A stretch of DNA of 57,713 nucleotides from a virus (IMGVR_UViG_3300023184_003134:1-57713); one strand, 5' to 3'. Counted from the stretch's first letter, positions 1-47,646 are shown. Numbers and translations are program-made. The notes: a model not told the origin generated them from the sequence alone.

Positions 1-619
1 TATATAAATCTTGATACAACTCCGGCCACCATTTCCAAAATGCTTCTACATATGGATTATATTCACTTTGAGGAATTGGTATTCTACCACTACTTACAAA
101 ATGTTCTAATCCATTAAAATTATCGGAAGTTGGATATCCCCCATGTTGTTCAATTTCTTCCATCCATTTTGTTGAGAATGGTGGTGCACAATACGAACAT
201 TTAAAATTACACGCATTACTGAATGAAACCTCTACATACGAAGGATTAATGTTATCTCTCCAATTACTTTCTTTAATTTTTTCTAAATGTGGAAATGCCC
301 ATGGTTCAGATGATTTAAATGTTCTATCACTAAATTGATTTGAACTATCCTCTACACCCCAACAATAATCACATTCTGCTGGCTTCCCACCTTCTAGCAT
401 TTCTCTTCTTTTTTGTTTTTTGAAACGTGTATTATGAAGTGCGGAAGGGTCTCTATTTAATTCAGTTGTTGATATTTGATGTGTCATTGGATGGTGACAA
501 CTATGATTATGTCCAATATGTAAATGCATCGTTACTTGCATCCATTTTGCTAAACAAAATCCTACTCCCACTGCATTTAATTGTTCTCTTACATTTTCAA
601 ATTTTTCGTAACTAGCCAT
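1..619 (-). CDS. Radical SAM protein, 3' end beyond the window
   Basis: Reading leftwards from the ATG at 619 gives 206 codons without a stop up to the window edge, so the C-terminus is missing. Residues 137-144 read CNFKCSYC, the CxxxCxxC motif that binds the catalytic 4Fe-4S cluster of radical SAM enzymes, preceded by VEVSFSNA as in that family. Before it lie a His-rich stretch (residues 32-43) and a CxxC pair (83 and 86) that may bind metal. The start overlaps the stop of the upstream glycosyltransferase gene as TAATG, so the two are probably translationally coupled. Phage radical SAM proteins of this short type are known, but the substrate cannot be told from sequence. The radical SAM call is firm; the reaction is unknown. 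Confidence 0.85.
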   Translation of the reverse strand, partial: MASYEKFENVREQLNAVGVGFCLAKWMQVTMHLHIGHNHSCHHPMTHQISTTELNRDPSALHNTRFKKQKRREMLEGGKPAECDYCWGVEDSSNQFSDRTFKSSEPWAFPHLEKIKESNWRDNINPSYVEVSFSNACNFKCSYCAPPFSTKWMEEIEQHGGYPTSDNFNGLEHFVSSGRIPIPQSEYNPYVEAFWKWWPELYQDLY

Positions 620-2061
620 TATGCTTTACAATTTATTATTACAGAATTATTACCTATTTCATCTATTGATATGAGTTCGTATTCTAAACTATTCATACCA
701 TCGTTTTTCCAATTATATTTACCTTGCTGCATTTCTAATATATATCTTCTTTCGTTTCTTGCAGTAGTTTCACCCTTTGCCCATTTATCTACTCCGGCAA
801 TTGTTATTAGGCCTTCGGTTTGGTGTGGTAAACATTCAAACTTACCGTCTCTACGAAATGGTAAGATAGTATTATGAACTTTTAAAATATCTTCTTCTTT
901 TATTTCAACATCATTTATTTCACCATGGTTTCCATTATCACTTAAATCATTTAATACGTTTCCATTTATTGAATTAAAATCATAATGTGCAACCATATCA
1001 TCCGGAAATTCCATTATTTCATTTTCCGATAAACATCTGTCCCACATCATAACTTTTGCAATATCACCTTTAAACCATCTATTAACTTCATCTACTCCTA
1101 CCGATGGTGTTGTTCCAATATAATATGGTTCTGTTCCATATCTTTTTAAATAACCACTATATTCTAATGGTGATGTTGCACCTGTTCCAAATCTTGCATC
1201 ACTTTTTCTGCCATTGATGTGAAGTGAAATTAATTTATTATCATCATCAACTGTCAACGTTACCCAACTCCATTGTTGTTCGTATCTCTTTGCCCATAAG
1301 TATAAAAACTCTCTTTCATTATTCCATAACATAGAAGTAAATGCTCTACTATTGTTGTACGATATACCCCAATCATGTCCTGGTCTACGAAGAATTGGAT
1401 ATTCACAAAATCTTCTATCCTCATCACCAATTAAATAAATAGGAACTTTCTCCTCTTGTTGATGTGCTCTTACTAATATTGAAACCGTATGTGAACGCGA
1501 ACATAAATTTCTAATTGAACGAGATGGTTCTATTTTAACATATGATTTTAATCCATCAAAATATCCATACTTTTGGTTTACTATATCTGGTAAATAATGT
1601 TGTTCTGCATTACCTGTTAATACACATCTCCAAAATAGGTCATCATCTTCCATACCCCAATCCCAATAATCATTTGAGTAACCATTTGTAGCTTCTACTT
1701 GTTCTTTTGTGAATAGTACTGCACCACCAAAATACTCCTCATATTTGAGGTTATAATCTGTTTGAGATATTCTTACAGCTAAGTGCTTAGGGTTCTCAGG
1801 ATTGAAGCTATAATCACAAGAACTATCTTCTGGTACCATATCTATATCGTGCCATACAATATAATCACACCCGTCATCAAATGCGTGCTTAGCGGCGATG
1901 TTTTTCATCTTACCTCTATTAAATAACTTATCATCACATTGGTGAGCAAAATATATTTTATGTTCAATACCTTGTTCAGTTAAAAACTTATGAACTCTTG
2001 GTGCAAATTCTGCTAAATGTGCTTCTCTATTTCTATATGGTACACAAACTCCTAACTTCAT
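619..2061 (-). CDS. GT7 galactosyltransferase-like protein with inserted LamG domain (copy A)
   Basis: 480 residues. The N-terminal part carries the beta-1,4-galactosyltransferase (GT7) signature: VPYRNR (8-13), FNRGKMKN (47-54), the metal-binding HDIDMVP (71-77), YFGGA (110-114) and WDWGMEDDDLFWRC (133-146). Residues of about 165-400 then form a LamG/concanavalin-like sandwich (YFDGLKSYVKIE, later WFKGDIAKVMMWDR and HYDFN). After this the GT7 fold resumes: FECLPH (408-413) supplies the histidine matching the third metal ligand of animal enzymes, and DGMNSLEYEL (454-463) matches their DGLNSL segment. So LamG is inserted within the catalytic domain rather than appended. The product probably transfers a sugar from a nucleotide donor, and LamG may hold a glycan or protein acceptor. 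The start overlaps the end of copy B as ATGA. Confidence 0.85.
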   Translation of the reverse strand: MKLGVCVPYRNREAHLAEFAPRVHKFLTEQGIEHKIYFAHQCDDKLFNRGKMKNIAAKHAFDDGCDYIVWHDIDMVPEDSSCDYSFNPENPKHLAVRISQTDYNLKYEEYFGGAVLFTKEQVEATNGYSNDYWDWGMEDDDLFWRCVLTGNAEQHYLPDIVNQKYGYFDGLKSYVKIEPSRSIRNLCSRSHTVSILVRAHQQEEKVPIYLIGDEDRRFCEYPILRRPGHDWGISYNNSRAFTSMLWNNEREFLYLWAKRYEQQWSWVTLTVDDDNKLISLHINGRKSDARFGTGATSPLEYSGYLKRYGTEPYYIGTTPSVGVDEVNRWFKGDIAKVMMWDRCLSENEIMEFPDDMVAHYDFNSINGNVLNDLSDNGNHGEINDVEIKEEDILKVHNTILPFRRDGKFECLPHQTEGLITIAGVDKWAKGETTARNERRYILEMQQGKYNWKNDGMNSLEYELISIDEIGNNSVIINCKA

Positions 2062-3470
2062 AGTTTAACTGAAATTTTAATTGCCTTATCTGAAAGTTTA
2101 TTACTTTCTATTTCTTTGTAAATACAGGTGTTTAATCCATCTATTGATAAATCTACTATATTACCTTTCATTTCGTTATAAAATCTTTCTTGATTTTTTC
2201 TTGTTTCTGAATGTATCCAATTATTACCAATTGTTGAATTAGAACTATGCTTTAATGTTTTAAATTTTCCTTCTCGTCTGATTGGAACTATAATTTCTGT
2301 TTCAAATTTATCTACTAATATGTTATCTTCACAATTGTAAATAAATCCATTATTTTTATTACCACTTAAATCTTGTATAATATCACCTTTAAAATTTTTA
2401 AAATCATAATAACATTTTAAGTATTTTGATTTATCATATTTTCTATAATCATTAATTATAGATTTGTATAATGAATTTTCATATACTTCTTTTATGTTAT
2501 CGAATTCTAATGCAATATTCCAAATAGCAAACTCAGCAATTAATCCTTTAAAATAAAATTGTTTAATATCTAATGTTGGATTACCTACTCCAATATAAAA
2601 ATAATCATTATCATATTCATATATTTGGTCTTTTAGTTCTTTGGTATCAATTAATTCACCATTCATATAAAAAGAAAATGTATCATCTTCTTTTGTAATT
2701 ACTAAATGTGACCACACTTCACCAATGATATCACTTTGAATAGATGTTGAAATATCATCTTTAGTCCAAATCTCACCTTTGTATCGTTTGAATGATGTGT
2801 ATGATATACCTGTGTTTCTACCTGGTATTGATGTAATCTGATATTCATCGAACTCTTCTTTTAATGAGGTCTTACTATCTTCCGGTTTTACTTTGATTGA
2901 TATTGTAAAATCACCATTAAAAATAGATGATAAATTTTTGTAAGGAATTTTAATATAAGATTGTTTACCATCAAATTTAAAATAATTTATTAAATAGTTT
3001 TTATCAGGTATACCAACTGATATTTTATCTAATGGTATATTTCTCTGAATACATCTATATAATAAATCGTCATCTTCAAATCCCCAACCCCAATACTCAT
3101 TCGAATAGCCATTTACTAATTTATAATCATGTACATTAAATAAAGTAACTCCACCAAAATAATCGATGAATGGTATATCTTTATTAATTTTAGATACTAA
3201 ATGAATTGGTGTATCAGGATAAGAATAATCTACTCCCTTTAAAGGTAACATATCTACATCATGTAATGCAAAATAATCAAAACCTTCTTTAATTGCAATC
3301 CTAGCTCCTACATTTAAAAGTTTACCTCTATTAAAAGGCTTATCATCACTCTGTTCTATGACAAAGATTTTGTAATCGTAATCCTTTAAATACTCTTGCA
3401 TATAAGGAACGAATACTTCTAAATGAGATGTTCTATCTCTATATGGAACTATTATTGCTAATTTTTTCAT
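2058..3470 (-). CDS. GT7 galactosyltransferase-like protein with inserted LamG domain (copy B)
   Basis: 470 residues, a divergent paralogue of the downstream gene. GT7 motifs: VPYRDR (8-13), FNRGKLLNVG (46-55), HDVDMLP (70-76), YFGGV (104-108) and WGWGFEDDDLLYRC (127-140), all with catalytic acids intact. The LamG segment begins near FKFDGKQSYIKIP (about 164) and runs to about 390. The second GT7 half follows with FKTLKH (403-408), whose His matches the metal-ligand histidine, and DGLNTCIY (442-449 region). No signal peptide, so it acts in the infected cytoplasm or on virion material. Its start overlaps the stop of the small upstream gene as TAATG. Donor and acceptor are unknown; of the three copies this one looks closest to a canonical active site. 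Confidence 0.85.
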   Translation of the reverse strand: MKKLAIIVPYRDRTSHLEVFVPYMQEYLKDYDYKIFVIEQSDDKPFNRGKLLNVGARIAIKEGFDYFALHDVDMLPLKGVDYSYPDTPIHLVSKINKDIPFIDYFGGVTLFNVHDYKLVNGYSNEYWGWGFEDDDLLYRCIQRNIPLDKISVGIPDKNYLINYFKFDGKQSYIKIPYKNLSSIFNGDFTISIKVKPEDSKTSLKEEFDEYQITSIPGRNTGISYTSFKRYKGEIWTKDDISTSIQSDIIGEVWSHLVITKEDDTFSFYMNGELIDTKELKDQIYEYDNDYFYIGVGNPTLDIKQFYFKGLIAEFAIWNIALEFDNIKEVYENSLYKSIINDYRKYDKSKYLKCYYDFKNFKGDIIQDLSGNKNNGFIYNCEDNILVDKFETEIIVPIRREGKFKTLKHSSNSTIGNNWIHSETRKNQERFYNEMKGNIVDLSIDGLNTCIYKEIESNKLSDKAIKISVKL

Positions 3471-3691
3471 TAAGCTTCTCTTTCGGACTCTTTATCTGGT
3501 CTTGTTGATGTTCCAACTGCTTTGGTTTTAGCAATATTGTAAAACTCATTTAAATACCATTCTAATCTTGTAGACCATCCTTTGGTATCTAAATCGTATA
3601 ACCAATCACTAATGTCTTGTGCTGAGTGTGCGATACTTTCTAATGCTTTTACACCTCTTTCTTCGGTTGTTAGTTCTTTTTTTTCTGCCAT
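3470..3691 (-). CDS. Small helical protein of unknown function
   Basis: 73 residues, strongly charged, with no recognisable domain. It begins MAEKKELTTEERGVKALES and is predicted mostly helical, with a Trp-rich middle (SDWLYDLDTKGWSTRLEW). It lies between two GT7-LamG genes, 12 bases after the preceding gene and overlapping the next start by one base (TAATG), so it belongs to the same transcript. The tight overlap and clean ATG support a real gene. Nothing in the sequence points to a function; a structural accessory of the glycosyltransferases is only a guess from position. Confidence 0.65.
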   Translation of the reverse strand: MAEKKELTTEERGVKALESIAHSAQDISDWLYDLDTKGWSTRLEWYLNEFYNIAKTKAVGTSTRPDKESEREA

Positions 3692-3703
3692 TTTATTTTG
3701 TTT

Positions 3704-4099
3704 TTATTTTAAGAATTTTTTTACTGTTTCAAATGCAATTGCTTCGTGTCCTTCTTTCCACACTTTCCATTCTGGAGTTGTTATATGTGTTTCTATTTCT
3801 AATAATCTTGCATCAACTTCACCTAGTCTTGTATATAATTGTTCTAATCCTTTACCAACATTTTCTCTTTCTTGTTGTAAAGAAACTTTTTCATCTTTTG
3901 TATCTAAAAAATTTATTGCGTAATCAAATGTATTAGAACCATTAAAATGATACATTTTTAATAATGCTTCTATATTAATAATAAGTTTAGGTAAGAAAAA
4001 AGAAAAATCTCCTTTACTTTCTTTCATTACTTCTAATTCTTCAGCAATTGCTTCTAATTGTTTTACAACTAATTCGTTGTTTAATAATTGTTTTATCAT
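3704..4099 (-). CDS. Coiled-coil-like protein of unknown function
   Basis: 131 residues, rich in Glu, Leu and Lys. The first 30 residues (KQLEAIAEELEVMKES region) and a later segment (QQERENVGKGLEQLYTRLGE, about 78-97) look like coiled-coil helices; no signal peptide or membrane segment. The start shares ATGA with the stop of GT7-LamG copy C, and the next gene follows after 12 bases, so it is part of the glycosyltransferase operon. I do not recognise the family. Reality as a gene is well supported by length and overlap; function is unknown. Confidence 0.7.
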   Translation of the reverse strand: MIKQLLNNELVVKQLEAIAEELEVMKESKGDFSFFLPKLIINIEALLKMYHFNGSNTFDYAINFLDTKDEKVSLQQERENVGKGLEQLYTRLGEVDARLLEIETHITTPEWKVWKEGHEAIAFETVKKFLK

Positions 4100-5577
4100 A
4101 AAATTATTTTATACCATTCTGTATTTTTATCAAAGGTTTCTTGTTTAATTAATTTAAATTTTAAATTATTTAATCCTATTTTAGTAGTAGAAAATTTTTC
4201 AGTTAATATATCATTAAAAAATATTAACCCATTCTCAATAATATCAGGATCAAATGATTTAAATCTATTAACAATATCCGTATCATTATCGTGCGGTAGT
4301 GATTGAAAATTTGCTTCAATTCTCTTTGGTAGTTTTATTTTAGATGTTTTTATTATTTCATCCTTTAAAAGATATTCTGAATAATTACTACCATGTGTAT
4401 TATACAATGTGGCGTGGTTGTGATGTTTACTACCATCCATTACAAAGTTTTTATAAAAATTATTAAATTGATATTTTAATGTTGGTTCAAATTGTGTTTG
4501 TAATTTCCTATTATTAATCAATCCATTTAAATACAAATTTTTGATTTCCGAATCACTTAATGTATAATCAAATATATAAAGATTAGCTAGTTTACCTCTA
4601 AACATATTTTTACCATGTGAACCACATCCAATATAAATTTTATCTTTGGTATAATCCCACAATGGTAATTCAAATTGTGTTAGTGTATCTATTTTTTTAT
4701 TTTCTTCAAATGTATCTACAAATAATCTTAATTTATTTGAATCAAAATCAACATTACATATAATATGATGCCATTGATTTGGTTTTAATTTTCTATAATT
4801 AAAATAATATTTATTATCCTTTCCCCAAAAATTAAATCTTAATGTGTTATCCGGTTGAATTGAAATACCACTATTGAATCCAGGAAATGAAATTACATAT
4901 TGCTCCTCTTTAACAAAATCATCAAAGTTAATCCAAGCCGATATTGTAAATGAATCTGTTGTAATTCCTTTTAAGAATTTATTTGGTAATATTTCCATTT
5001 GAGTTTCACCATCAAATTTTAAATACGATACTTTTTCTTTTTTGATTGAATCGGTAATTCTTAATCTATCTATTTCGTATTCGGTATCTACTCTTGGGTA
5101 AATATATTCTGAATCTAATTTAACACCGGCTTTCTCCATTCTAAATAATAAATCTAAATCTGCATATCCCCATCCATAATATTCATTAGAATAACCATTA
5201 ACTTTTTCAAAATCTTCTTTTGAAATTATTAATACTCCACCTAAATATTGTAAATAAGGTAAAGTATTTTCATGCACTTGTACTCGAGTTGCTAAATGGG
5301 TAGGATGTTCTTTGTAAGAATAATCTGCTTTATCTGATGCTGGTAACATATCTACATCGTGGAAACAAAAATAATCATATTCATCTTTTAGTAAGTGAAA
5401 TGCAGAATTACATAACTTACCATAATTAAACGGTTTATTATCGGATTGTTCAATTACAAATATTTTATAATCAATATCTTTACCTTTTAAAAACGATTGT
5501 ATGTGTGGCAAGAAAATATCGAGATGTTCTCTCCTATCTCTATATGGAACTACAATAGCTAATTTATGATTACTCAT
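4096..5577 (-). CDS. GT7 galactosyltransferase-like protein with inserted LamG domain (copy C, altered active site)
   Basis: 493 residues from the ATG at 5577; a TTG five codons earlier is less likely. GT7 features: VPYRDRREHL (10-19), HDVDMLPA (73-80), YLGGV (111-115) and NGYSNEYYGWGYADLDLL (127-144). Here the usual EDDD reads ADLD, so the invariant Glu and one Asp are lost while one potential catalytic Asp remains; FNRGK is also FNYGK. A LamG-like segment (YLKFDGETQMEILP to YQFNNFYKNF, about 185-405) is inserted before the second GT7 half, FQSLPH (424-429) and IGLNNLKF (467-474). This copy may be weak, have another specificity, or serve as a binding partner of copies A and B. A host-type promoter lies immediately upstream. 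Confidence 0.82.
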   Translation of the reverse strand: MSNHKLAIVVPYRDRREHLDIFLPHIQSFLKGKDIDYKIFVIEQSDNKPFNYGKLCNSAFHLLKDEYDYFCFHDVDMLPASDKADYSYKEHPTHLATRVQVHENTLPYLQYLGGVLIISKEDFEKVNGYSNEYYGWGYADLDLLFRMEKAGVKLDSEYIYPRVDTEYEIDRLRITDSIKKEKVSYLKFDGETQMEILPNKFLKGITTDSFTISAWINFDDFVKEEQYVISFPGFNSGISIQPDNTLRFNFWGKDNKYYFNYRKLKPNQWHHIICNVDFDSNKLRLFVDTFEENKKIDTLTQFELPLWDYTKDKIYIGCGSHGKNMFRGKLANLYIFDYTLSDSEIKNLYLNGLINNRKLQTQFEPTLKYQFNNFYKNFVMDGSKHHNHATLYNTHGSNYSEYLLKDEIIKTSKIKLPKRIEANFQSLPHDNDTDIVNRFKSFDPDIIENGLIFFNDILTEKFSTTKIGLNNLKFKLIKQETFDKNTEWYKIIL

Positions 5578-5612: not shown

Positions 5613-6452
5613 TTAAACGGACTGAATTATTTTGAAGAGTACTCGCCATAAACTATAACCTAATACACCGGCATCTTCAATCATAAATCTCTCATCATAA
5701 ATATCAATTTTAAAATTATTTAGTTTTAATGCATCATACATTATTTGATATTCTTTTGAATACGCATAATCTTGTTTGATATCTGCTACTGCTTTAATTC
5801 TATCTATACAAGTTGAATCCCATTTAAAATGATGAACCTGAACATTATATTGATTAGTTGGTGCAATCAATGGATGATTCCAGCCTTGCCATTTCCAAGT
5901 AGTTTGTCCATCTATTTTTGCATAATGTTGTCCTGGTGTAAGTTCTACCCAACCTTTCATTATACACATTTTATTTGGACATGCATTACTTAATGGATAA
6001 CGAAAACAACCTGCTAATGGAAATTGTTCAAATATGTTTACATCTTCTTTTAGTTCTACAAATTCACCATCTCTACCGATTCTGTCTACAAATCCACCTC
6101 TAACCATTGCCCACCCATTAGATTCACAATCTTCTATAATTGTATTTAAATCTTTTGAATATACATGAAACTCATCATCATCCGATACTATCCACCAATC
6201 ATCAGGATACATCATTTTTATTTCATTGTATAATTTAGTTACATATTCCCAATTAAATTTTTCTTTATAAACTCTTTTTACTATTTTTGCTGTTGGAAAT
6301 TGTGAAACAATATGATTTACTGATTCGTATAAACTTTTTCCTTCCCATTCATATACTACCACATACATTTCATCTACTAAATCTTTGTAGTGATTTAGCA
6401 TATGTTTTAATGTTGATGTTCTACTACCTGTAACTGTAACTAATCTTTTCAT
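5613..6452 (-). CDS. GT-A glycosyltransferase-like protein
   Basis: 279 residues. The start resembles family 2 style glycosyltransferases (MKRLVTVTGSRTSTLKHML), and residues 88-96 read IVSDDDEFH, a DxD-type metal and nucleotide-sugar site after DDWW. A later block (CFRYPLSNACPNKMCIMKGW) and HHFKWD are conserved-looking. There is no signal peptide or membrane helix, so the enzyme should be soluble. It starts at ATG 6452, overlapping the stop of the methyltransferase gene upstream. It sits in a run of sugar-modifying genes. The fold is fairly clear; donor and acceptor are unknown. Confidence 0.7.
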   Translation of the reverse strand: MKRLVTVTGSRTSTLKHMLNHYKDLVDEMYVVVYEWEGKSLYESVNHIVSQFPTAKIVKRVYKEKFNWEYVTKLYNEIKMMYPDDWWIVSDDDEFHVYSKDLNTIIEDCESNGWAMVRGGFVDRIGRDGEFVELKEDVNIFEQFPLAGCFRYPLSNACPNKMCIMKGWVELTPGQHYAKIDGQTTWKWQGWNHPLIAPTNQYNVQVHHFKWDSTCIDRIKAVADIKQDYAYSKEYQIMYDALKLNNFKIDIYDERFMIEDAGVLGYSLWRVLFKIIQSV

Positions 6453-9272: not shown

Positions 9273-12200
9273 TTATTTATTTTTTAATTGTGTTTCTAAA
9301 TCTTCTACTTTTTGTAATAATTCTTGCATACCTTTCCATAAAATTGATGTTACTTTTTCATAATCAATACCAGCAACTGTTTTTTCTGTATAAATTGCTT
9401 TATTATTTTTATCTGCATCATATATGACTGATTGCCAAAAGTCATTATTATGTAAATCTTCAGCAATTAAACCAAATGTTTCAACCTCATCATCTGCCCA
9501 ATTTTTATACTTAAATCTTTTAACTGGAACTTTTTTTATATTTTCTAATACACCACCTATTTTCCAATTTCCATAAATATTTTTGGTTTTACGACTTGAT
9601 GAACTTTGAAATAGTTTACCATTAGTAAGGGTATCAGCTTTTATAGTATAGTTTGTACCAGCTCCACTTGGATTTAATGCCAATCCTCTTAAATATACAT
9701 CCGATAATGCAAAAAATGGATTTGCAATTTGAGTAGTTTTACCCGCACCACCTAAATAATTGTGGCCATCGGTAATAATTGCAAATCCTTGATTTATAGC
9801 GTCACTCGCACCTGGTGTTGTAGTATTCCTAGCAATTATACCACCTACAAACTCTCCAGCTGCCACACCACTACTTACACCACTTGCATTTTCGAAAATT
9901 CTAGCATATACTGGTGTATATTGGTTTATGGTATAATCTATTGTACTATATGTCGATACGGCTACCCCTGTGTTTGAATTTGCGGTATCATTATACCCAG
10001 CTATTGATGCTCTCAAACCAAATCCACCGGTAGATATAATACCACCCATTTCAAAACCTGATTGATTTATTTCAGTAAATGGATGGAATGGTTGGCTTTG
10101 AAAAGTAGTACCAGCTCCAATTCTTACTTTATAATAATTTAAGTTATTCGGGTCCATTACTGCAAATTCTTTGTTAGTACTATCTAATCTAGTTACCGAA
10201 TCGGTTGATTTTAATCTAGTAGCTGCAAGTTCCCAACCACCAATCGCACCTGCATTAGCAGTAATTGTTCCTCCCACTGCTAATGTACCTGCACCATCGA
10301 ATGTTACATAATTACTTGCTGAATTTCCAATTGAAAATTTATATGCAGAATCATGATAACCTAAAAAGAAGCCGGTACCGGTATTATAATCTGTCTGTCC
10401 ACCTTTAATATATCCACCACCATTCATTCTAATACCACCTGACCCAATATCAATTGTGGATTCAATACCATATTTTGCCTGATTTGCCGGCGAATAGTTA
10501 CTAACATTACCTAAACCTACGGCCGAACTCGCTAATGTAAATCCACTTAATGTTAATGAGGTTGCTGTTATTGCACCGGTAATAGTTGCCGATGTTGCTG
10601 TTAATGCACCCGCCGATGTTACTTTAAATGTAGAACTTCCACCTAATGCAATTCCATCAGTACCCACATATACTCCGGCATTTGCATCGGTTAAAGTTGC
10701 TTTTCCATTTCCAATATATGAACTATTAATTGCAAAACCAGCAGCTGCTGTGCCTATATATCCCGTTGTTGCAGTTATTGCACCATTTATAGCTAATACT
10801 CCACTTGACCAACTTAATGAATCACTACCAGCTCCACTTAAAAAGAAATTACCGGTATTACTCATATAAGTTTTCCAATCACTTCCATTATAATATCCTA
10901 AGAAAGTTGAACCCAAATATAAACCTGATGTACTTACCGATGGTGTTTTATTTATTAAACCAGTTGTTGATGTGAATACCTTATTATCTACACCGGTTAT
11001 ATTACCTTGTAATGCTGATGCTGATGTATTTAAATTACCTTGTAAAACCGATGAAGATGTATTTAAATTACCTTGTAAAACCGATGAAGATGTATTTAAT
11101 CTTGTAGTTGCGGTTGTTAACGAACCACTAGCTGTACTTCCTGCATAATCTTGGGTTGCACCATTACCACCCGTAATATCAATTGCACCTGCTATTGTTA
11201 ATCCGCCTGCACCATCCCATACTAAATAATTTGAAAATGGAGTTGTAGAAGAACCAGTAAGATAAAATTTACCTTGGTTATCCATATAGGTTTTCCAAGT
11301 ACCACTACCATCATAAAATCCTAAATGCGTATTACCTAAAAACAAACCGGCTACTGATGCGGTTGGTGCTTTTACTACTCTACCATTTGCATCCGTAAAA
11401 ATTCTACCATCTAATAATGCTGTTGTTGCTGCTGTTGATGCTGATATAGATGCTGAGTATGCTAATGATGCGGCATTTGATGCTGATATAGAGGTTGCCG
11501 TAGAACCACTATTTGTAGTTATGGTAGTTGCTAAACTTCCACTATATGAACTTGCCGATAAATATGCTCTATATGCTGATGCTGATATTGATGATGAAAT
11601 TGTATTTATTTCAGTTTGTGTATATATGTTTGAGTTTGAACCTACTATATTAATAGTACCTGCTACTGTTAATCCTCCTGCACCGTCCCATACTAAATAA
11701 TTAGGAAAATGATCATTTGCTGAACCAGTAAGGTAGAATTTACCTTGATTATCCATATACGTTTTCCAATCACTACCACTATAAAATCCTAAATAGTTTG
11801 AACCCAAATATAATCCATTAGATACATTTACTCTTACATTTGGTGGTTTATTAATATTACCACTAACATCCGTAAAAATTCTACCATCTAATAAATTAGT
11901 TGTAAATGCGGTTGATGATGATATTGCTTCTGCTCTTGCCGATAAAGCACCGGAATAAAATAAAGATGATGATGCCAATGAAGCGGACCATAATGTTGCG
12001 TTATACGATGAACCGGATATTCCACTATTTAATGATGCACTTATATACAAAGATGAACTCATTAAACTAGCACTATAAGCGGCTGCTGCTGCATTTGATG
12101 CACTAATTGAAGTATATGCCGAACTACTATATGCACTTGCCGATGAATATACATCTGCTACAGATTTAGTAGTTGCTGCATTTGTTATACCACCTTCTTG

Positions 12201-14048
12201 AATATTAATTTGTCCTTGAATTTGTAATGTACCTAATGAACTTGCCCAAGCTAAAAATTGTCCATTTGAACCAGTTAGATAAAAATCACCCTGGTTATCC
12301 ATATACGTTTTCCATCCACTTGTTGATGCAGTTGCACTTGAACTATAAAATCCTAAATAGTTTGAACCTAAAAACAAACCTGTGCCACTTGCTGTTGGTG
12401 GTTGGTTTAGTTTCCCATTTTCATCTGTAAAAATAAATTTATCTAAAAATGCTGATGCAGAATAAACTTGATATAAAGATTGCGATGCTTGAGAAATTGC
12501 TGAATTACTAATTGATGCTAATGATGAACTTACTGATTGACTAAGTGTATATTGACTTCCACTAACTACATTAATAGAACTACTCAATGAACCACTTACT
12601 AATATAATAAAATTTGCAGATGATGCACTTGTTTCACTTGCTGATTTAGAAATACTACTACTTAAAGATGCACTTGTTGTTGATATTGTTCCACTTACCG
12701 ATTGTGATAATGCGGTTAATGATGCCGATGTATATAATGAACCTGATTGTAATGTATTAAAATTTGTACCACCAACAAAAACTGCACTTTGTGTTACTGC
12801 AACCGGTACATAGTTATTGTTTACATCATAAAATTCAAACTTAAAATTAAATGTTTCATTTGTCAATACAGTTGGCATTGATGTAACAAAACTAATTTCA
12901 TTTGGAGAAAATGCCGTATCTTGTGAAACATTTAAACCTATATTACCAACATGCCATTTACCAATTGATTGTGATAAATATAAACTTGCGGTTGGATAAT
13001 CAAATGGTATAGTGAATGGGAATGTTTGTATTCCAAATTTTTTAGTAGGTGTTAAACCATTTAATATTGCAATTGTTGTAGTTGATGTATATGCTTGACC
13101 TAATGTAGATTGAGTTGGGTAACTTAAATATATACCCAAATTATCTGCAGTAGAACCGGTAAAAAAACTATCTAATTGTAATTCATATGTATTTGAACTA
13201 AGTAAATTTAATGATGCAGAATAAGTAAGGGTCCCACTACCTGTTAATTGTAATCCATTTTCAATATAAGTAGCATCTAATGTCGCATTTAATGAACCGG
13301 TAAGCCATAATTTAGAAAGAGAATCATTTGTAAATAATCCACCATCACCAACTACACTTCCACTTAATTCATATGTGGTTAAAAGATTTTTTGATTCTAC
13401 TAATATATCTTGTATTAAATCATAATCAGATATATCACCTTGTGCGGTTCTATATACTTTTATTCTTTTTACATCACCCGCAAATGTTTCTAATTGATTT
13501 ACTTTAATTGATGCAAATGAACCTTGTATTAATGAAGCTGTTTTACTACCACTTACTATTGTATATAATGGTTCTACTATTTCTGTAATTGAAACTAGTG
13601 GTCTTTTATAAAATCTTACTCTTGTTGTATTGGCTAATGCAGGATTTATGTTAACTTGCTTAGTCCACTTTACACTATATAAACCATTCCATTCTTGTGG
13701 TACATCTTTTAATTGACCTAATATTGTAATTGTTGCCGGGCCAAATGAGGTTATAGTAGGATATACATAAACTGCTGCTACTTTAGAATTACCTTCATAA
13801 TATTCGGGTGAACCATTTGAGTATTCTACATAACATACATTACCTGCTGCATCTCTAATTTGAATTTTGATTTCAGTATTAGCTAATAGTTTATCCGAAC
13901 CCGCTATTAGGAATGCGTTTTTACCTCCCGTAAAAGTATCAGGTAGTTCACTTATATTAAAATAATCTGAATTTAAATTAGTATCTGTAATGTAGGTTTG
14001 TACTAATTCTAACTTTTCATCGGGTGCAACTTTTATATCAACGGCCAT
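9273..14048 (-). CDS. Long tail fibre with C-terminal S74 intramolecular chaperone
   Basis: 1591 residues. The first 470 or so look like beta-sandwich adhesin modules. The centre alternates Ser/Ala-rich segments (SSSISKSASETSASS type) with four copies of an 80-90 residue unit containing GLYLGSNYLGFY and WKTYMDNQGKFYLTGS, encoded near 12430-12190, 11890-11650, 11405-11170 and 10975-10780. The C-terminus (about 1480-1591) is an S74 endosialidase-type chaperone: SSRKTK with Ser1484 and Lys1489 as the likely self-cleavage pair, VKRFKYK, TFGLIAEDL and a final coiled coil (SILWKGMQELLQKVEDLE). Such domains trimerise the fibre and then cut themselves off. This is probably the host-recognition fibre. 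A candidate late promoter lies upstream. Confidence 0.9.
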   Translation of the reverse strand: MAVDIKVAPDEKLELVQTYITDTNLNSDYFNISELPDTFTGGKNAFLIAGSDKLLANTEIKIQIRDAAGNVCYVEYSNGSPEYYEGNSKVAAVYVYPTITSFGPATITILGQLKDVPQEWNGLYSVKWTKQVNINPALANTTRVRFYKRPLVSITEIVEPLYTIVSGSKTASLIQGSFASIKVNQLETFAGDVKRIKVYRTAQGDISDYDLIQDILVESKNLLTTYELSGSVVGDGGLFTNDSLSKLWLTGSLNATLDATYIENGLQLTGSGTLTYSASLNLLSSNTYELQLDSFFTGSTADNLGIYLSYPTQSTLGQAYTSTTTIAILNGLTPTKKFGIQTFPFTIPFDYPTASLYLSQSIGKWHVGNIGLNVSQDTAFSPNEISFVTSMPTVLTNETFNFKFEFYDVNNNYVPVAVTQSAVFVGGTNFNTLQSGSLYTSASLTALSQSVSGTISTTSASLSSSISKSASETSASSANFIILVSGSLSSSINVVSGSQYTLSQSVSSSLASISNSAISQASQSLYQVYSASAFLDKFIFTDENGKLNQPPTASGTGLFLGSNYLGFYSSSATASTSGWKTYMDNQGDFYLTGSNGQFLAWASSLGTLQIQGQINIQEGGITNAATTKSVADVYSSASAYSSSAYTSISASNAAAAAYSASLMSSSLYISASLNSGISGSSYNATLWSASLASSSLFYSGALSARAEAISSSTAFTTNLLDGRIFTDVSGNINKPPNVRVNVSNGLYLGSNYLGFYSGSDWKTYMDNQGKFYLTGSANDHFPNYLVWDGAGGLTVAGTINIVGSNSNIYTQTEINTISSSISASAYRAYLSASSYSGSLATTITTNSGSTATSISASNAASLAYSASISASTAATTALLDGRIFTDANGRVVKAPTASVAGLFLGNTHLGFYDGSGTWKTYMDNQGKFYLTGSSTTPFSNYLVWDGAGGLTIAGAIDITGGNGATQDYAGSTASGSLTTATTRLNTSSSVLQGNLNTSSSVLQGNLNTSASALQGNITGVDNKVFTSTTGLINKTPSVSTSGLYLGSTFLGYYNGSDWKTYMSNTGNFFLSGAGSDSLSWSSGVLAINGAITATTGYIGTAAAGFAINSSYIGNGKATLTDANAGVYVGTDGIALGGSSTFKVTSAGALTATSATITGAITATSLTLSGFTLASSAVGLGNVSNYSPANQAKYGIESTIDIGSGGIRMNGGGYIKGGQTDYNTGTGFFLGYHDSAYKFSIGNSASNYVTFDGAGTLAVGGTITANAGAIGGWELAATRLKSTDSVTRLDSTNKEFAVMDPNNLNYYKVRIGAGTTFQSQPFHPFTEINQSGFEMGGIISTGGFGLRASIAGYNDTANSNTGVAVSTYSTIDYTINQYTPVYARIFENASGVSSGVAAGEFVGGIIARNTTTPGASDAINQGFAIITDGHNYLGGAGKTTQIANPFFALSDVYLRGLALNPSGAGTNYTIKADTLTNGKLFQSSSSRKTKNIYGNWKIGGVLENIKKVPVKRFKYKNWADDEVETFGLIAEDLHNNDFWQSVIYDADKNNKAIYTEKTVAGIDYEKVTSILWKGMQELLQKVEDLETQLKNK
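11001..11099 (-). repeat. Three tandem 33-bp repeats inside the tail fibre gene
   Basis: Copies at 11001-11033, 11034-11066 and 11067-11099. The last two are identical and the first differs at a few bases. They keep the reading frame and encode an 11-residue unit (NTSSSVLQGNL), apparently a heptad-like shaft element. Identical neighbours suggest a recent slippage or recombination event that changes shaft length. Confidence 0.9.
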
Positions 14049-14733: not shown

Positions 14734-17700
14734 TTATTTATATTGAATTTGAGAAAATCCATCTACTTTTTTAATCTCAACCAATGTATCTACAATATCT
14801 CGCATTGCATCCAAGTGAGAAATAATATTAATAAAATCAAATTGTGTTTTAAGGTAATCAAACATCATAAAGATAGATTGTAAATTATCACTATCTAATG
14901 TACCAAATCCTTCATCAATAACTAAAAAGTTTGGACGAGGTAAGTTACATACATTGATAAGTGCAACTCTAATAGCAAGTCCACTAACGAACTTCTCCAT
15001 ACCACTACACATCTCTAGCGGCCAATGTTGGTCCTCATAAACAATCCTAGCGTTCACATTCTTACCACTCATATCAAATACGATACCAAACTCTACAATT
15101 TGCTGTAAGATGTTATTAACCTCGCCTTCTATCACCGGTAGAGCCTTTGCAATTAATTCATATGAAACACCATCTCTCTTTACTGCATCTAAGTAGTATT
15201 CATAAATTTGGAATTTTTCTTCTAAATCTTTTGCTTCTGTCATCTTATCGGTAACTGATGTAATATAAGATTGTGTTTGAACTATTTGTCCATTCATATC
15301 TAACAATCTTGCTGCTATCTCTCTTAGGTCTTTACTAACTCCCGCTAACTCTTGTTTCTTAATATCAATTTGTTCCTCTAAAGAATCATTGTTTTGAATA
15401 GTAGTTTCGTTTGCGTGATATTTTTCTATATCCAATTCTACCGCTGTTAATTGTGCCTCATACAATTCTTTTTGAGTAAGTAATCCACTCAATTCTAATG
15501 TTCTAGTTTTATAAAGTGTTTTGCCTTTTTCTAATTTAGATTTTAAATCATTCCATTGCACATATTGTTCTTCAATACCTTCCCATGAATCTAACGTTTG
15601 TTGAATACCTGTACATTGGATAGTTGCCTGTTTAACTTCTTCTTTCAATTGAGGTAACAATTCTTTTACTCTCATTGCATCTTTTACAAAAGTATTATCA
15701 CAACAAAACTTACAATTTGGGTCATATTTATGATTATCCAATCGTTCAATCGTTTCTTCTGCAGAACTCAAATGTAATTTTGCAATATCATAAATTTTTG
15801 TAGCTTCGATTAAACTTGTTTGTTCTCGTTGATAATTAGAATATACAACTTCTATATCAATATCATTAAATTGTTGTTTACTTAATATTGCGTTTGTTAA
15901 ATCATCTATTGCATCTGTTATCTTAACACAATGTGTTGCTTTAGAATCTGCATCTACAATTGAACCTGTGATTTGAGATTGTAACGTTGATTGTTTACTT
16001 TCTAAATCATCAATATCTAAGTTACCATCAATAGGAACTAATTGAGTGGATAGATTAGTTATTTCTTCATTCAAATCATCTTGTCTATCTTCGTAACCTT
16101 CTTTCTCAATTTCAAATTCTTCATACTCATCCTTTAATATTTCCAATTTATTTTCAGCGGTTGCTAATTCAGATGTAAAATCCGTTCTCTTAAAGTTTCT
16201 TAATAAGACTTGAACTTCTTTAATATCTTCACTCGCTAAATCATATAACTTATCGAATACATTAATACCCATAAATTGAGCTAATAAATCTTTTCTTTCT
16301 GATTGTGATTTATCAATGAATAACGAATTGTTTCCTTGTAAAGATAACGCAGTTAATACAAAATCTTCATACTTTCCTAAATAAGATTCAATTACTTTAT
16401 CCGTTCCTCTACGCTCATCACCATTTAAGTTTACTATTTCACCACCCTCTATTTTCCAAAAGTTTACATCACACTTAACCGCATCACCCTTCTTTGTAGT
16501 TTTAGCAGTTCTCTCAATGAAAAATCTCTCATCATTAATATCAAACTCTAACTTACAACTAAATGATGTTTTACGATTGTTTAGAATGTTAGCTGCCTTA
16601 AATGCTCTACTACTCTTATCAAATATACAAAATGAAAGAGCATCGAATAGAGAGGATTTACCACTAGCGTTTGGAGCGAACACACCCATTAACCCTTTCA
16701 TATTCTCAAAGTTAACGATATTATCCTCACCATAAGAGAACATATTATCAAACTCAAAACGAATTGGTTTCCAAGCTATGTTCTTAACTAAATCATCATC
16801 GTTTAATCGTTTGTTTAGTTTATTGTTCAAATCCTCAATCTTACCTAATGTTTCATTATCCAACATATAGTTTCTACCTAAGTAATCTTTAATAAGACCG
16901 GCTTGGTATTGAGGGTCATTCACATTACCTACATTCACCTTACCATCTTTGTTACCCGTCCTTAAACGAGCTAAAGTGTCGGTACGAGTAATAGTGAACT
17001 CATCTACTTTATATTTCTTTTTAATCTCCGTAGTAACTCTCTTAATATCTGCTGCATCGGTTTTAGATACAAACACTCTAAGACGAGGTTTCACAGGCAT
17101 ATCGGTTACATCAGGTACAATACCATTCTCAACGTGCAAAGTATAATAACCATAATCATTTTGAACATCTACATATTCAACTGATAAATCATCCATATTC
17201 CAAATAGCATAACCATGTTTATCTAATGCCTCACCATGATTCTGTTGTATTAAAGAACCTGGATAAACTACCTTACAACCTTTTGGAGAAATCATAGTTT
17301 GTCTTCTATGTATATCACCTAATAGGGCTAAATCATATCCATCAAACATTTCTGATGTAAAATGACGAGAGGAAATTGTATAACCAACATCCGTAGTTGC
17401 ATCTAATACAGGTCCATGAAATAATGCAATATTTTTAGTATCTGATGTTAATGGTTCAAACACCCAATTCTCTTTATCATCAAATATAGAGAACGTATCA
17501 AATCTTACACCCCCATAGGTATAACTTTGAGTATTTCTTAAATAAGTTAAATTAGGTAAATCTAATGCTTCTACAATTGGAGTTAATACATCCAATCTAC
17601 CCGCATTATTTAAGTTACAATCGTGGTTTCCAGCTATTAATATGGTAGGACATAATTCACAACACTTCTTAAGAAAATAATTTATTTCATTAAGAAGCTC

Positions 17701-17880
17701 CGGTGACATTTCTAATTTTGCGTGAGCTAAGTCTCCCGCTAAATAAATAAGAGAGTCATCAACTCCCTTACTTTTTATATCATCAAACAATCTATCAAAT
17801 ACCTCTCTATATTCCTGGTGTCTTTTTAGATTTCTAATGTGAATGTCCGCAATGTGATAAATTTTCTTTAATTTACTCAT
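14734..17880 (-). CDS. Single-chain Mre11-Rad50 (gp47-gp46 type) recombination nuclease
   Basis: 1048 residues. Residues 1-350 are an Mre11/SbcD-like calcineurin phosphoesterase: D12 and H14 (ADIH), D50 (AGDLAH), N85-H86-D87 (GNHD), H155, and D189/H191 (GDIHRRQ). From about 370 a Rad50/SbcC-like ATPase follows: Walker A APNASGKS (402-409), Q-loop SLQG (513-516), two long coiled-coil arms, zinc hook CKFC (723-726), a signature region CSGMEKFVSGLA (958-969), Walker B FLVIDE (985-990) and D-loop GTLD (993-996). T4 and most bacteria encode the two subunits as separate genes; here they form one uninterrupted chain. The product should process DNA ends during recombination-dependent replication. It starts 3 bases after the primase stop. 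Confidence 0.93.
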   Translation of the reverse strand: MSKLKKIYHIADIHIRNLKRHQEYREVFDRLFDDIKSKGVDDSLIYLAGDLAHAKLEMSPELLNEINYFLKKCCELCPTILIAGNHDCNLNNAGRLDVLTPIVEALDLPNLTYLRNTQSYTYGGVRFDTFSIFDDKENWVFEPLTSDTKNIALFHGPVLDATTDVGYTISSRHFTSEMFDGYDLALLGDIHRRQTMISPKGCKVVYPGSLIQQNHGEALDKHGYAIWNMDDLSVEYVDVQNDYGYYTLHVENGIVPDVTDMPVKPRLRVFVSKTDAADIKRVTTEIKKKYKVDEFTITRTDTLARLRTGNKDGKVNVGNVNDPQYQAGLIKDYLGRNYMLDNETLGKIEDLNNKLNKRLNDDDLVKNIAWKPIRFEFDNMFSYGEDNIVNFENMKGLMGVFAPNASGKSSLFDALSFCIFDKSSRAFKAANILNNRKTSFSCKLEFDINDERFFIERTAKTTKKGDAVKCDVNFWKIEGGEIVNLNGDERRGTDKVIESYLGKYEDFVLTALSLQGNNSLFIDKSQSERKDLLAQFMGINVFDKLYDLASEDIKEVQVLLRNFKRTDFTSELATAENKLEILKDEYEEFEIEKEGYEDRQDDLNEEITNLSTQLVPIDGNLDIDDLESKQSTLQSQITGSIVDADSKATHCVKITDAIDDLTNAILSKQQFNDIDIEVVYSNYQREQTSLIEATKIYDIAKLHLSSAEETIERLDNHKYDPNCKFCCDNTFVKDAMRVKELLPQLKEEVKQATIQCTGIQQTLDSWEGIEEQYVQWNDLKSKLEKGKTLYKTRTLELSGLLTQKELYEAQLTAVELDIEKYHANETTIQNNDSLEEQIDIKKQELAGVSKDLREIAARLLDMNGQIVQTQSYITSVTDKMTEAKDLEEKFQIYEYYLDAVKRDGVSYELIAKALPVIEGEVNNILQQIVEFGIVFDMSGKNVNARIVYEDQHWPLEMCSGMEKFVSGLAIRVALINVCNLPRPNFLVIDEGFGTLDSDNLQSIFMMFDYLKTQFDFINIISHLDAMRDIVDTLVEIKKVDGFSQIQYK

Positions 17881-36492: not shown

Positions 36493-38190
36493 TTACTTAC
36501 TAATCAAATAGTTACCCAATACTAAGTAATCCATTTCACAATCGTAAAAGGTTTTAATAGCTGTTGTAGGGTCTAATACCATTGTTTGACCTCTAAGATT
36601 GAATGAGGTATTGAGTAGGATAGGATAACCACTTAGTTTTTCAAATTTCTTAAGTAGTGTAAAAATATGTGGATTGAAAGTAGAACGAACTGTCTGAACT
36701 CTTGCGGTTTCATCGGCGTGGGTAATAGATGGTAATCCTGCAATAAATTTATCTTTAACTTTAAATACTTGATTCATATACGGAACTTCTTGTCCTAACA
36801 TCTCAAAGTATTTACTTGCATCTTCTGCCGTAACCATTGGTGCGAAAGGTCTAAATCCTTCTCTCTTTTTAATTACTCTATTTACCTTTGGTTTAATATC
36901 TTTAATTGTTGGGTTGGCTAATATAGAACGATGTCCTAATGCTCGTTGTCCAAACTCACTACCATCTTGAAACCATCCTATAATTGCACCATCATTGATT
37001 AAACCAGCTACCTTTTCTATTAATGGATTATAATTTTCAAATCTTTTTACTTTTTCTTTTGGAACTAATTTAGCAATCGCAGATATAAAATCTGCTGCCC
37101 CATATGAAGGTCCTAAAAATGGTGTTGAATTTTCTACTCTTTTTTGTGTAGGATTAGATTGATAATACACAAATAATGCACACCCAATAGCAGAACCTGC
37201 GTCAGAGGGTGCTGGTGGAACATATACGTTCTTATAAGGAGTTTCTATTGTTATCTTACCATTTGCTAATCCATTATATGCACACCCACCACTCAAACAT
37301 AAATTGTCTTGTGGGTAATGTTTATAAAAGTTATTTAACATTTGGAAAAATAATCTTTCGTAATGTGCTTGTAATGAAAATGCAATATCCATATAAGCCG
37401 GCTCTAATTCACTTTCGGGAACTCGCGGTGCTATATTAAATAGTTCTGCCAACTTAGAAGTAAACATCCCTTTTTCTGAATAATGGAATGAAAAATACTT
37501 CATATCCAATTCTAACTTATTACCATTTAGTTTAGCAATCTTTTCAAATTGTTCTCTATATAAATCGTTTTGATTACCATACGCCACTAATCCCATTACT
37601 TTGTATTCACCACTATTTGGTTTGAATCCTAAAAATGAAGTAACACTTGCATATAATAATCCTAATGAATGTGGAAAGTAATTTCTCTCCAATGGTTGTA
37701 TGTATCTACCTTTTAAACCTAATCCTAATATTGCTGTTTCGTTTTCACCCACACCATCTACGGAAAATAAATGTGCTTCGTTAAATGGTGATGTGTAGAA
37801 CGAATATGCTAAATGTGATATGTGATGTTCTACATATTCTATTGAACCTTTATATCCTAATTGTGTACGAATAATATCTTCAATGTTATTATTCTTTCTC
37901 CAAAATATAAGTTTCTTAGTTAAAAGGATTGTTTTAGGAAAATATCTAAACCACTGTTCTTTAAATCTTTCGTATTTTTTCTTAGGGTCTTCGTACCAAA
38001 CAATTTTATCTATTTGCTTAATCTTTAATTTGTTTTGTTTTAGAATCCACTTAATGGAATTGATAGGAAATCTTTGGTCGTGCTTTTCACCTGTAAATCG
38101 TTCTTCTTCTTGTGCCGATACAACTTTGCCATCTACAATCAATGCAGCTGCTGAGTCGTGGTAAAATGCTGATATCCCTAATATTCTCAT
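36493..38190 (-). CDS. O-carbamoyltransferase, NodU/CmcH/TobZ family
   Basis: 565 residues from the ATG at 38190, which forms ATGA with the sigma-factor stop; a TTG seven codons upstream is rejected. The N-terminal domain has MRILGISAFYHDSAAALI and AQEEERFTGEKHDQRFP, with conserved His and Asp residues. The middle has LSGGCAYNGLANGK and PPAPSDAGSAIGCALF. The C-terminal YrdC-like part has QDGSEFGQRALGHRS, REGFRPFAPMV and LLNTSFN. The family moves a carbamoyl group from carbamoyl phosphate, through carbamoyl-AMP, to a hydroxyl on a sugar or antibiotic. The target here may be a glycan or modified nucleobase. Length and motifs are complete. Confidence 0.92.
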   Translation of the reverse strand: MRILGISAFYHDSAAALIVDGKVVSAQEEERFTGEKHDQRFPINSIKWILKQNKLKIKQIDKIVWYEDPKKKYERFKEQWFRYFPKTILLTKKLIFWRKNNNIEDIIRTQLGYKGSIEYVEHHISHLAYSFYTSPFNEAHLFSVDGVGENETAILGLGLKGRYIQPLERNYFPHSLGLLYASVTSFLGFKPNSGEYKVMGLVAYGNQNDLYREQFEKIAKLNGNKLELDMKYFSFHYSEKGMFTSKLAELFNIAPRVPESELEPAYMDIAFSLQAHYERLFFQMLNNFYKHYPQDNLCLSGGCAYNGLANGKITIETPYKNVYVPPAPSDAGSAIGCALFVYYQSNPTQKRVENSTPFLGPSYGAADFISAIAKLVPKEKVKRFENYNPLIEKVAGLINDGAIIGWFQDGSEFGQRALGHRSILANPTIKDIKPKVNRVIKKREGFRPFAPMVTAEDASKYFEMLGQEVPYMNQVFKVKDKFIAGLPSITHADETARVQTVRSTFNPHIFTLLKKFEKLSGYPILLNTSFNLRGQTMVLDPTTAIKTFYDCEMDYLVLGNYLISK

Positions 38191-38915
38191 CTTGTAATTG
38201 TTCGTTTCCAAAACGGGTCTTTTGATTCTTGTGTTATATCACCTTCATCTAAGAATTGATAGTATAACTTCATTTGGGTTTCTTTCATCTTTGAAACAAC
38301 TTTAGTTATATAATGTGTTTTATAACCTGTCATTTCTCTAACCAATAAGTATAACGATTTTTTATTAAATGATTCTATAAATTCAGCCCGTCTAAATAAT
38401 TCTAAAACAGCATCTGCAATTTGAATATCTCGTTTCTTTGTAAATTCTTTATTCAAATTTAAATCCCAAAATTGTAACATTCTATCATTAAATGTTTTAA
38501 ATTCTTCGTTATGTGATGTTTGTTTAAAATCATTTTCCAAATCCCAAGTAACCGGCATTGTACTTAATTGTGATGTTGCTTTAAATCTTTTGTAGTTAGA
38601 ATTATTATTTAGGATAAGATAATTACGAGCTGCAATTGTAAAGTAACTAAATGCTTTACCTTTACCTTCTTCAAACTTATGTATTTTTTCTAATAAAAAA
38701 GAAACTACTTCATGTTTGATATCTTCTTTATCATCATCAAAGTAAGTAAATCCCCAAGTGTTTAATACGTTTTCGGATAATTTATAAAATGAATAATGGA
38801 TGTGTTCGGTGTATAATTTATTTCTCTCTCTATTATCATCCGATTTGTTGTATGCGATAATAGCTGCTTCAGTTTGTTCGGTGAAGTATCTGGTATCTTT
38901 TTTCTTTCTACCCAT
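38187..38915 (-). CDS. gp55-like late transcription sigma factor
   Basis: 242 residues. The core KEDIKHEVVSFLLEKIHKFE followed by GKAFSYFTIAARNYLI matches sigma region 2 as shortened in T4 gp55-type factors. The C-terminal part (REMTGYKTHYITKVVSKMKE) is a helix-turn-helix-like segment. gp55 redirects host RNA polymerase to late promoters, usually with a sliding clamp. The gene lies in a unit that starts at a host-type promoter (39806-39837), as expected for a regulator made before late genes. It overlaps the membrane-protein gene upstream and the carbamoyltransferase downstream. Confidence 0.82.
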   Translation of the reverse strand: MGRKKKDTRYFTEQTEAAIIAYNKSDDNRERNKLYTEHIHYSFYKLSENVLNTWGFTYFDDDKEDIKHEVVSFLLEKIHKFEEGKGKAFSYFTIAARNYLILNNNSNYKRFKATSQLSTMPVTWDLENDFKQTSHNEEFKTFNDRMLQFWDLNLNKEFTKKRDIQIADAVLELFRRAEFIESFNKKSLYLLVREMTGYKTHYITKVVSKMKETQMKLYYQFLDEGDITQESKDPFWKRTITR

Positions 38916-47007: not shown

Positions 47008-47646
47008 TTATAGTTTAAAAAATTTATCTGCGTTATTTATTTTATTTATTCTATTTTCTGCAATCTTACACGTAACTTCATGTATTTCACTACCTATGTA
47101 CTTTCTATTATTTTCAATACATACCACTGCCGTAGTACCACTACCTATAAATGGGTCAAATACTATTTCATTTTTCTTTGTATATCCATTGATAAATTCT
47201 TTTACAATATTAGCCGAAAAATTGTAGGTATATTCCGGTGTTGCTGGTACAAATACTTCATACCAAACATCCGGTAAATTTACTACTTTTGAAACATCTT
47301 TTTTAAATGTTAAAATAAAAGTATAACCTGGTCTATATAAATCAATTTTATATGTTTTAACCCATATTTTCTGTGATATTAATCTCCATCCTAATTCATT
47401 CATTAGGGTACACATAATAGTATGTTTCGGAATAATAGTACCTTCTGCTTTTCTATCGGAAACAAATATAGTGACGGTATCATTCTTTGGATTAAATTTT
47501 TCAAACCTTTCTTTTAAGAAATGAATATAAGGTTGTATATTTTTAGTATCTACTCCAATTTCATCAAAATCTGGTGGAGATGTAATAATGTAATCATAAT
47601 CTAAGTTACGATTAAGTGTATCTAAACAATCTTCGTTGTAAATCAT
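47008..47646 (-). CDS. DNA methyltransferase-like protein, beta class, with SPPD motif
   Basis: 212 residues. Motif IV comes first (YIITSPPDFDEIG, 19-31) and motif I last (IVFDPFIGSGTTAVVC, 161-176), the circular order of beta-class N4/N6 DNA methyltransferases. Motif IV reads SPPD where the usual aromatic residue is Asp, which may change or abolish base flipping. KYIGSEIHEVTCKIAENRI follows as motif III-like. The target recognition region is short. It overlaps the 100-residue gene upstream. Likely protects or marks phage DNA; activity is uncertain. Confidence 0.75.
   Translation of the reverse strand: MIYNEDCLDTLNRNLDYDYIITSPPDFDEIGVDTKNIQPYIHFLKERFEKFNPKNDTVTIFVSDRKAEGTIIPKHTIMCTLMNELGWRLISQKIWVKTYKIDLYRPGYTFILTFKKDVSKVVNLPDVWYEVFVPATPEYTYNFSANIVKEFINGYTKKNEIVFDPFIGSGTTAVVCIENNRKYIGSEIHEVTCKIAENRINKINNADKFFKL

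Follow-up and report, generated by a model that had tools for sequence, protein, structure and literature searches.

A circularly permuted LamG domain appears to interrupt the GT7 glycosyltransferase domain in three paralogous viral proteins

The three genes and their parts

The viral DNA stretch IMGVR_UViG_3300023184_003134:1-57713 (57,713 nucleotides, called the window here) encodes near its first end three paralogous proteins, P0001, P0002 and P0003, which combine a glycosyltransferase family 7 (GT7) domain with a LamG domain. A sequence-only reading had proposed that in all three the LamG domain is inserted into one GT7 domain, and Pfam matches above the cut-offs together with homology behind the insert bear this out. 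The comparisons indicate that each protein is one GT7 (GT-A fold) domain interrupted by LamG. The open reading frames (ORFs) and their parts are listed below; C-His denotes the metal-ligand histidine, and HMM a hidden Markov model.

619-2061, minus strand: P0001 (C-type), ORF of 480 amino acids (aa)
1606..2061, minus strand: P0001 GT7 N-terminal part, residues 1-152, with VPYR, FNR, HDID, YFGGA and DWGMEDDD (Pfam GT7N/GT7C)
862..1605, minus strand: P0001 LamG-containing insert, residues ~153-400 (Laminin_G_3 41 bits, residues 172-349), not in compact homologues
916..1002, minus strand: P0001 putative permuted LamG first-hairpin element, residues 354-382, '..HYDFNSINGNVLNDLSDNGNHGEI', after the LamG core (canonical-element HMM, E 0.073)
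622..861, minus strand: P0001 GT7 C-terminal part, residues 401-480, with DGMN and C-His H413 (823-825) (C-half HMM, E 6.2e-7)
2058-3470, minus strand: P0002 (B-type), ORF of 470 aa
3030..3470, minus strand: P0002 GT7 N-terminal part, residues 1-147, with VPYR, FNR, HDVD, YFGGV and GWGFEDDD (phmmer, Foldseek)
2286..3029, minus strand: P0002 LamG-containing insert, residues ~148-395 (Laminin_G_3 65.5 bits; DSSP of the AlphaFold model)
2331..2423, minus strand: P0002 putative permuted LamG first-hairpin element, residues ~350-380, 'LKCYYDFKNFKGDIIQDLSGNKNNGFIYN', after the core (E 3.2 for the single protein, 0.011 for the family)
2061..2285, minus strand: P0002 GT7 C-terminal part, residues 396-470, with DGLN and C-His H408 (2247-2249) (C-half HMM, E 7.2e-6)
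4096-5577, minus strand: P0003 (A-type), ORF of 493 aa
5116..5577, minus strand: P0003 GT7 N-terminal part, residues 1-154, with degenerate FNY and GWGYADLD (Pfam)
4336..5115, minus strand: P0003 LamG-containing insert, residues ~155-414 (Laminin_G_3 78.6 bits; AlphaFold confidence 92.3)
4396..4479, minus strand: P0003 putative permuted LamG first-hairpin element, residues ~367-394, positioned as in the other families (family hhalign E 0.12, weak alone)
4099..4335, minus strand: P0003 GT7 C-terminal part, residues 415-493, with IGLN and C-His H429 (4291-4293) (C-half HMM, E 0.017)

The cassette genes are closely spaced, with stop and start codons that overlap. Glyco_transf_7N (PF13733) and Glyco_transf_7C (PF02709) were found in all three proteins with 59-89 bits (curated Pfam cut-offs 23-27), and Laminin_G_3 exceeded its cut-off of 27.6 bits in each, with 41 (P0001), 66 (P0002) and 79 (P0003). 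Residues 3-149 of P0002 matched B4GalT1 at 4e-30 in phmmer. The GT7 motifs expected in the first ~150 residues are present there, although P0001 has YFGGA and not YxGGV. The order of DxD, the catalytic Asp of xED and C-His is complete in P0001 and P0002; P0003 keeps DxD, the base Asp and C-His, but A-D-L-D replaces E-D-D-D and FNY replaces FNR. The insert, first put at about 220 residues, measures ~245-260 in P0001, P0002 and P0003, and the LamG core within it ~145-180.

The GT7 domain resumes after the insert

We examined the C-terminal ends with an HMM built from the C-terminal halves of 17 uninterrupted bacterial GT7 proteins and nothing else (the C-half HMM). Of 267 viral GT7 ORFs, 253 were matched at the C-terminus, against only 5 of the 1733 remaining ORFs, and these five are fragments of the same family. 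By this HMM the segment 'LxH ... DG(L/M)N / IGLN' is homologous to the C-terminal half of uninterrupted GT7. The missing GT7 end had been said to resume behind the insert, and it does so with E values of 6e-7, 7e-6 and 0.017 in P0001, P0002 and P0003; the metal-ligand residues His413, His408 and His429 were also numbered correctly. Furthermore, when each of the three families was searched as a profile against the PDB, a weak second domain match fell on the C-terminal end of B4GalT1, in the correct order. When a profile of the compact (uninterrupted) proteins was searched independently against the genomes with another tool, compact phages gave one unbroken match (model 1-222), whereas split phages gave two matches (e.g., 2-152 and 153-222) that fell in the same ORF. 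At the insertion site, the compact homologues of viruses and bacteria are unbroken.

AlphaFold models of P0002 and P0003 had a mean predicted local distance difference test (pLDDT) of 92.0 and 92.3 and a predicted TM-score (pTM) of 0.88 and 0.87, respectively. In Foldseek searches of the PDB, B4GalT1 and B4GalT7 were matched over ~150 N-terminal columns, with a root-mean-square deviation of 1.6-1.9 Å in most matches, and the insert matched LamG or pentraxin folds. Among the 50 matches listed from BFVD, the query TM-score was at most 0.42, none spans the full protein well and none names both domains. We infer closure of the GT7 fold from the homology colinear with compact enzymes and from the high confidence of the models.

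The inserted LamG is predicted to be circularly permuted

Single-domain planctomycete proteins were used as the canonical LamG reference. In canonical LamG a hairpin of the type 'LVGYWSGD..NDSSGNNLHG' lies ahead of the core, whereas in the inserts the equivalent element ('LKCYYDFKNFKGDIIQDLSGNKNNGFIYN' in P0002) lies behind it. Among 267 split proteins in which the core was matched, a profile of the canonical element gave a match behind the core in 98 and ahead of it in none; in canonical LamG proteins the position was reversed, with 22 matches before the core and none after. One of 502 background ORFs was matched (E up to 10). The element occupies the same place in all families according to profile comparison (E 0.0003 in C, 0.011 in B and 0.12 in A), and the canonical strand order, with the N-terminal hairpin before the core, is not found in the inserts. 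These results indicate that the inserted LamG is circularly permuted, with its usual first strands at the C-terminal end. LamG would then be opened between two neighbouring strands, and the GT7 hairpin could thus continue into LamG strands. In the AlphaFold model of P0002, DSSP assigns long strands at 148-167 and 381-395, by which the insert is entered and left.

The inserts of the A, B and C families are mutually homologous over almost their whole length (E 1e-41 to 6e-31). LamG diverges faster than the GT7 part; mean identity in family B is 30% in LamG vs 61% in the GT7 N-terminal part. Other identities of the insert were considered and rejected. A tandem arrangement with a truncated second LamG does not fit the few residues between the GT end and the LamG core, where no canonical first hairpin occurs, and an intein or a second enzyme does not fit an insert that is a LamG match.

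The insertion site lies next to the lid

With C-His aligned, the insertion falls near residues 330-336 of human B4GalT1, in the hairpin directly before the lid. This is the hairpin between the catalytic Asp and the metal His. The lid of human B4GalT1 comprises residues 338-365 (PMC6198961), so the boundary is indeed near the mobile loop, as was noticed from the sequence. The blocks of lowest confidence in the P0002 model (411-420 and 431-440) come after C-His, where the B4GalT1 lid lies. Residues 328-334 of human B4GalT1 may help to bind the acceptor of the partner (PMC6198961), and by alignment the hairpin that takes the insert belongs, in that enzyme, to the dimer interface close to the acceptor (PMC6198961). 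The hypervariable sites of the GT-A core are beta3-alphaC, beta6-beta7 and the tail after beta8 (PMC7185993). The insertion site between xED and C-His appears to differ from these three, although the mapping is approximate.

Catalytic residues differ among the three copies

In the B and C families, DxD and the equivalents of Trp314, Glu317, the base Asp318 and Asp320 are kept in 213 of 213 proteins, and C-His is present in every row that could be scored. Asp319 is changed to Asn or Thr in 12 B proteins. The catalytic positions of P0001 (C) are fully conserved across 105 family members, and H408 of P0002 is invariant (48/48). The A family is different: among its 38 proteins, Arg228 is changed to Tyr in 36 and Asp319 to Leu or Ile in 33, while Glu317 is lost in 24 and the base Asp318 in 9. 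P0003 itself retains the base Asp and C-His. Because the A family has lost several catalytic residues, the idea that all three copies are active enzymes is not supported.

A subset of A-type paralogues (L029, L070, L072 and relatives) also lacks the usual C-His segment (e.g., '...KILENSNKF...'), which suggests that these proteins are pseudoenzymes.

Distribution and origin

With P0002 alone as query, 73 related loci were found in IMG/VR. A scan with the C family as query gave 353 confirmed relatives; 80 of these were kept. Scanning with the bacterial alignment also yielded uninterrupted viral GT7 proteins; a single compact protein (L082) as query gave no related loci among the viral contigs. 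Insert length is bimodal in the 305 viral ORFs with both halves: 41 have no insert and 264 have one of 215-336 residues, with none between. The same split architecture, for which a search had been proposed, is therefore found in 264 viral ORFs. When loci with identical proteins were merged, 159 viral groups resulted, 117 of them split and 41 compact, and none had both forms in the fetched stretch. Two genes are held by 73 split groups and three by 35. No isolated phage was found: P0002, P0003 and the protein of the compact L082 had no tblastn match in 50,697 phage records. A T4-type Gp23 capsid gene is present in 11 of 13 larger records with split genes, which identifies the carriers as T4-like myoviruses. 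The window itself does not contain this gene.

Trees were built from the GT7 columns alone and without an inferred root. One branch separates the split from the compact proteins, with one state change (Shimodaira-Hasegawa-like approximate likelihood ratio test, 93-94). Since the tree is unrooted, it does not by itself distinguish gain from loss of the insert, but gain is favoured because compact forms are widespread in bacteria and animals. Most likely, the insertion happened once, and duplication then produced the conserved cassette of two or three genes seen in T4-like phages.

Split GT7 was also observed in bacterial records. The bacterial chromosome segment L081:5944-13413 carries a single LamG-split GT7 with GT2, an ABC exporter and an HlyD-like gene, and clearly cellular genes adjoin. 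Three Flavobacteriales/Flavobacteriaceae metagenome-assembled genomes (MAGs; L077, L078, L083) and a Pelagibacterales MAG (L079) have split GT7 on short contigs, which are probably co-binned phage.

Neighbouring genes and phage type

Two genes flank the cassette directly.

5613..6452, minus strand: Glyco_tranf_2_4-like protein, directly upstream in the operon (weak Pfam match, E 0.004)
2..619, minus strand: radical-SAM-like protein, directly downstream, cut by the window end (weak Pfam match, E 0.0075)

Counted by loci and not by contigs, relatives of the Glyco_tranf_2_4-like protein occur in 167 of 189 split-GT7 loci, those of the radical-SAM-like protein likewise in 167 of 189, and those of a nearby methyltransferase in 131. 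A large protein near the cassette (9273-14048), with a weak S74-chaperone match, is probably a tail fibre. The window also holds a T4-like baseplate wedge protein, a DnaG-like primase and SbcCD-like recombination domains. The nearest relatives of the baseplate protein are in Microcystis phage Mel-JY01 (43%) and Flavobacterium phages (39%), which is indecisive for the host. A Flavobacteriales bin with split GT7 also contains several Gp23 capsid genes, and this is a weak hint at a Bacteroidota host.

Other genes of the window were observed in passing. A Nol/NodU-like carbamoyltransferase (36493-38211, minus strand; PHROG 1601, E 1e-121) is likely another glycan- or metabolite-modifying gene of the same phage. 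An ORF of 1048 aa (14734-17880, minus strand) combines a calcineurin-type phosphoesterase with SMC/SbcC domains, like fused T4 gp47 and gp46. An N6/N4 DNA methylase profile is split over two ORFs (44884-45774 and 47008-47646, minus strand), an N-terminal part (profile 2-114) and a C-terminal part (160-220); the C-terminal part is upstream in transcription order, and Hsp20 and another gene sit between the two.

Proposed mechanism and alternatives

By sequence, the beta-hairpin of GT7 that leads from the catalytic xED helix to the strand with the metal-binding C-His has been opened and has received a circularly permuted LamG. We propose that the B-type (P0002) and C-type (P0001) proteins are active, metal-dependent inverting sugar transferases in the cytoplasm of the infected cell. 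LamG, located at the edge of the acceptor site next to the mobile lid, may recognise the acceptor and keep it at the catalytic pocket; candidate acceptors are an intermediate of a host surface glycan and a protein of the phage virion. The A-type protein (P0003) would be a diverged partner, either a pseudoenzyme or an enzyme of altered specificity. Acceptor recognition by LamG is plausible, and the faster divergence of LamG fits a recognition role without proving it. Taken as a whole, we regard this proposal as fairly probable.

Several observations weigh against it. The C-half match of P0003 (E = 0.017) and the permutation signal of its A family (E 0.12) are each weak alone. The Foldseek alignment with B4GalT1 spans only the N-terminal ~155 residues and does not bridge the insert. 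In addition, the proteins begin at the GT7 domain and have no apparent signal peptide, so that a lectin role of LamG would be cytoplasmic, which is unusual. A more specific version, in which the permuted LamG beside the lid makes a lectin-gated acceptor site and the degenerate A protein is a specificity partner of B and C, seems to us doubtful. The proposed partnership bears a loose likeness to that of alpha-lactalbumin with B4GalT1.

It is possible, though we would not expect it, that GT7 is an ordinary transferase and that LamG serves as a protein-protein or virion tether (for oligomerisation or for docking to tail or capsid) instead of recognising the acceptor sugar. LamG domains have been described in the tail fibres of jumbo phages and in other virion components (PMC7824862), the hairpin that takes the insert matches the homodimer interface of B4GalT1 (PMC6198961), and the probable tail fibre with its weak S74-chaperone match is close to the cassette. 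However, a relative of the S74 gene was found in only 1 of 189 loci within the fetched flank, and LamG is the fastest-changing part of the protein, a pattern more in keeping with a variable ligand than with a fixed partner, although this is not decisive.

It is improbable that the proteins are GT7-derived scaffolds or binding proteins with no transferase activity. The A family invites this idea by its loss of Arg228, Asp319, often Glu317 and even the base Asp318, but in the B and C families DxD, Trp, Glu317 and the base Asp are present throughout, as is C-His in all scorable rows. An ordinary fusion of a truncated GT7, a LamG and an unrelated C-terminal tail is what Pfam annotation alone looks like, because the Glyco_transf_7C match stops near the xED helix. 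Such a fusion is very hard to believe, given that the C-half HMM matches nearly all viral ORFs in the order found in compact enzymes and that both parts of the compact profile fall in one split ORF; for P0001 and P0002 the sequence excludes it. An assembly chimera or a misread frame is refuted and its probability negligible, as no supporting sign was found, the ORFs are intact with overlapping stops and starts, and the same architecture recurs in about 117 non-identical viral groups.

Comparison with known systems

The first ~150 residues have the same fold as B4GALT1 (CAZy GT7; PDB 6fwt/6fwu/2ae7) with 36-39% identity, and in B4GALT1 and P0002 DxD, FNR, GWG-EDDD, C-His and DGLN follow in the same order. 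Unlike B4GALT1, the phage proteins have no stem or membrane anchor, and a LamG insert of ~250 residues replaces the hairpin before the lid. Compact bacterial GT7 proteins (e.g., of Parachlamydiaceae HS-T3, 221 aa, L082) share up to 54% identity over the N-terminal part; compact GT7 of bacteria and of other phages (e.g., L182, L191 and L214) lacks LamG and runs unbroken through the same hairpin. The core of the insert is homologous to the Laminin_G_3/LamG-like jelly-roll (planctomycete proteins; pentraxins; PDB 4dqa) with hhalign E values of 1e-15 to 9e-19, but canonical LamG opens with a 'vayypfD...DsSGNgnhG' hairpin, which the phage inserts carry C-terminally.

Clusters of paralogous glycosyltransferases in cyanophages and jumbo phages, related to capsule or surface modification, likewise combine paralogues with other modification genes, and the passages found on them contain no mention of a LamG-split GT7 (PMC7824862). 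The open-access literature on LamG with galactosyltransferase or glycosyltransferase in phages (most subscription papers lie outside this scope) and the viral structure library likewise yielded no description of the same insertion, in agreement with its supposed novelty.

GT-A enzymes have been described as gaining acceptor specificity via three expanded hypervariable loops (PMC7185993). Here, the segment from the catalytic Asp to the metal His has apparently taken up a whole permuted lectin-type domain, probably once, and many T4-like phages have kept it. If LamG sets the acceptor, these proteins would offer a natural template for sugar transferases with a plug-in recognition module and a testable handle on the glycosylation targets of uncultured phages. 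In summary, GT7 enzymes and the LamG lectin-type domain are both known, and what is new is the unusual way of combining them.

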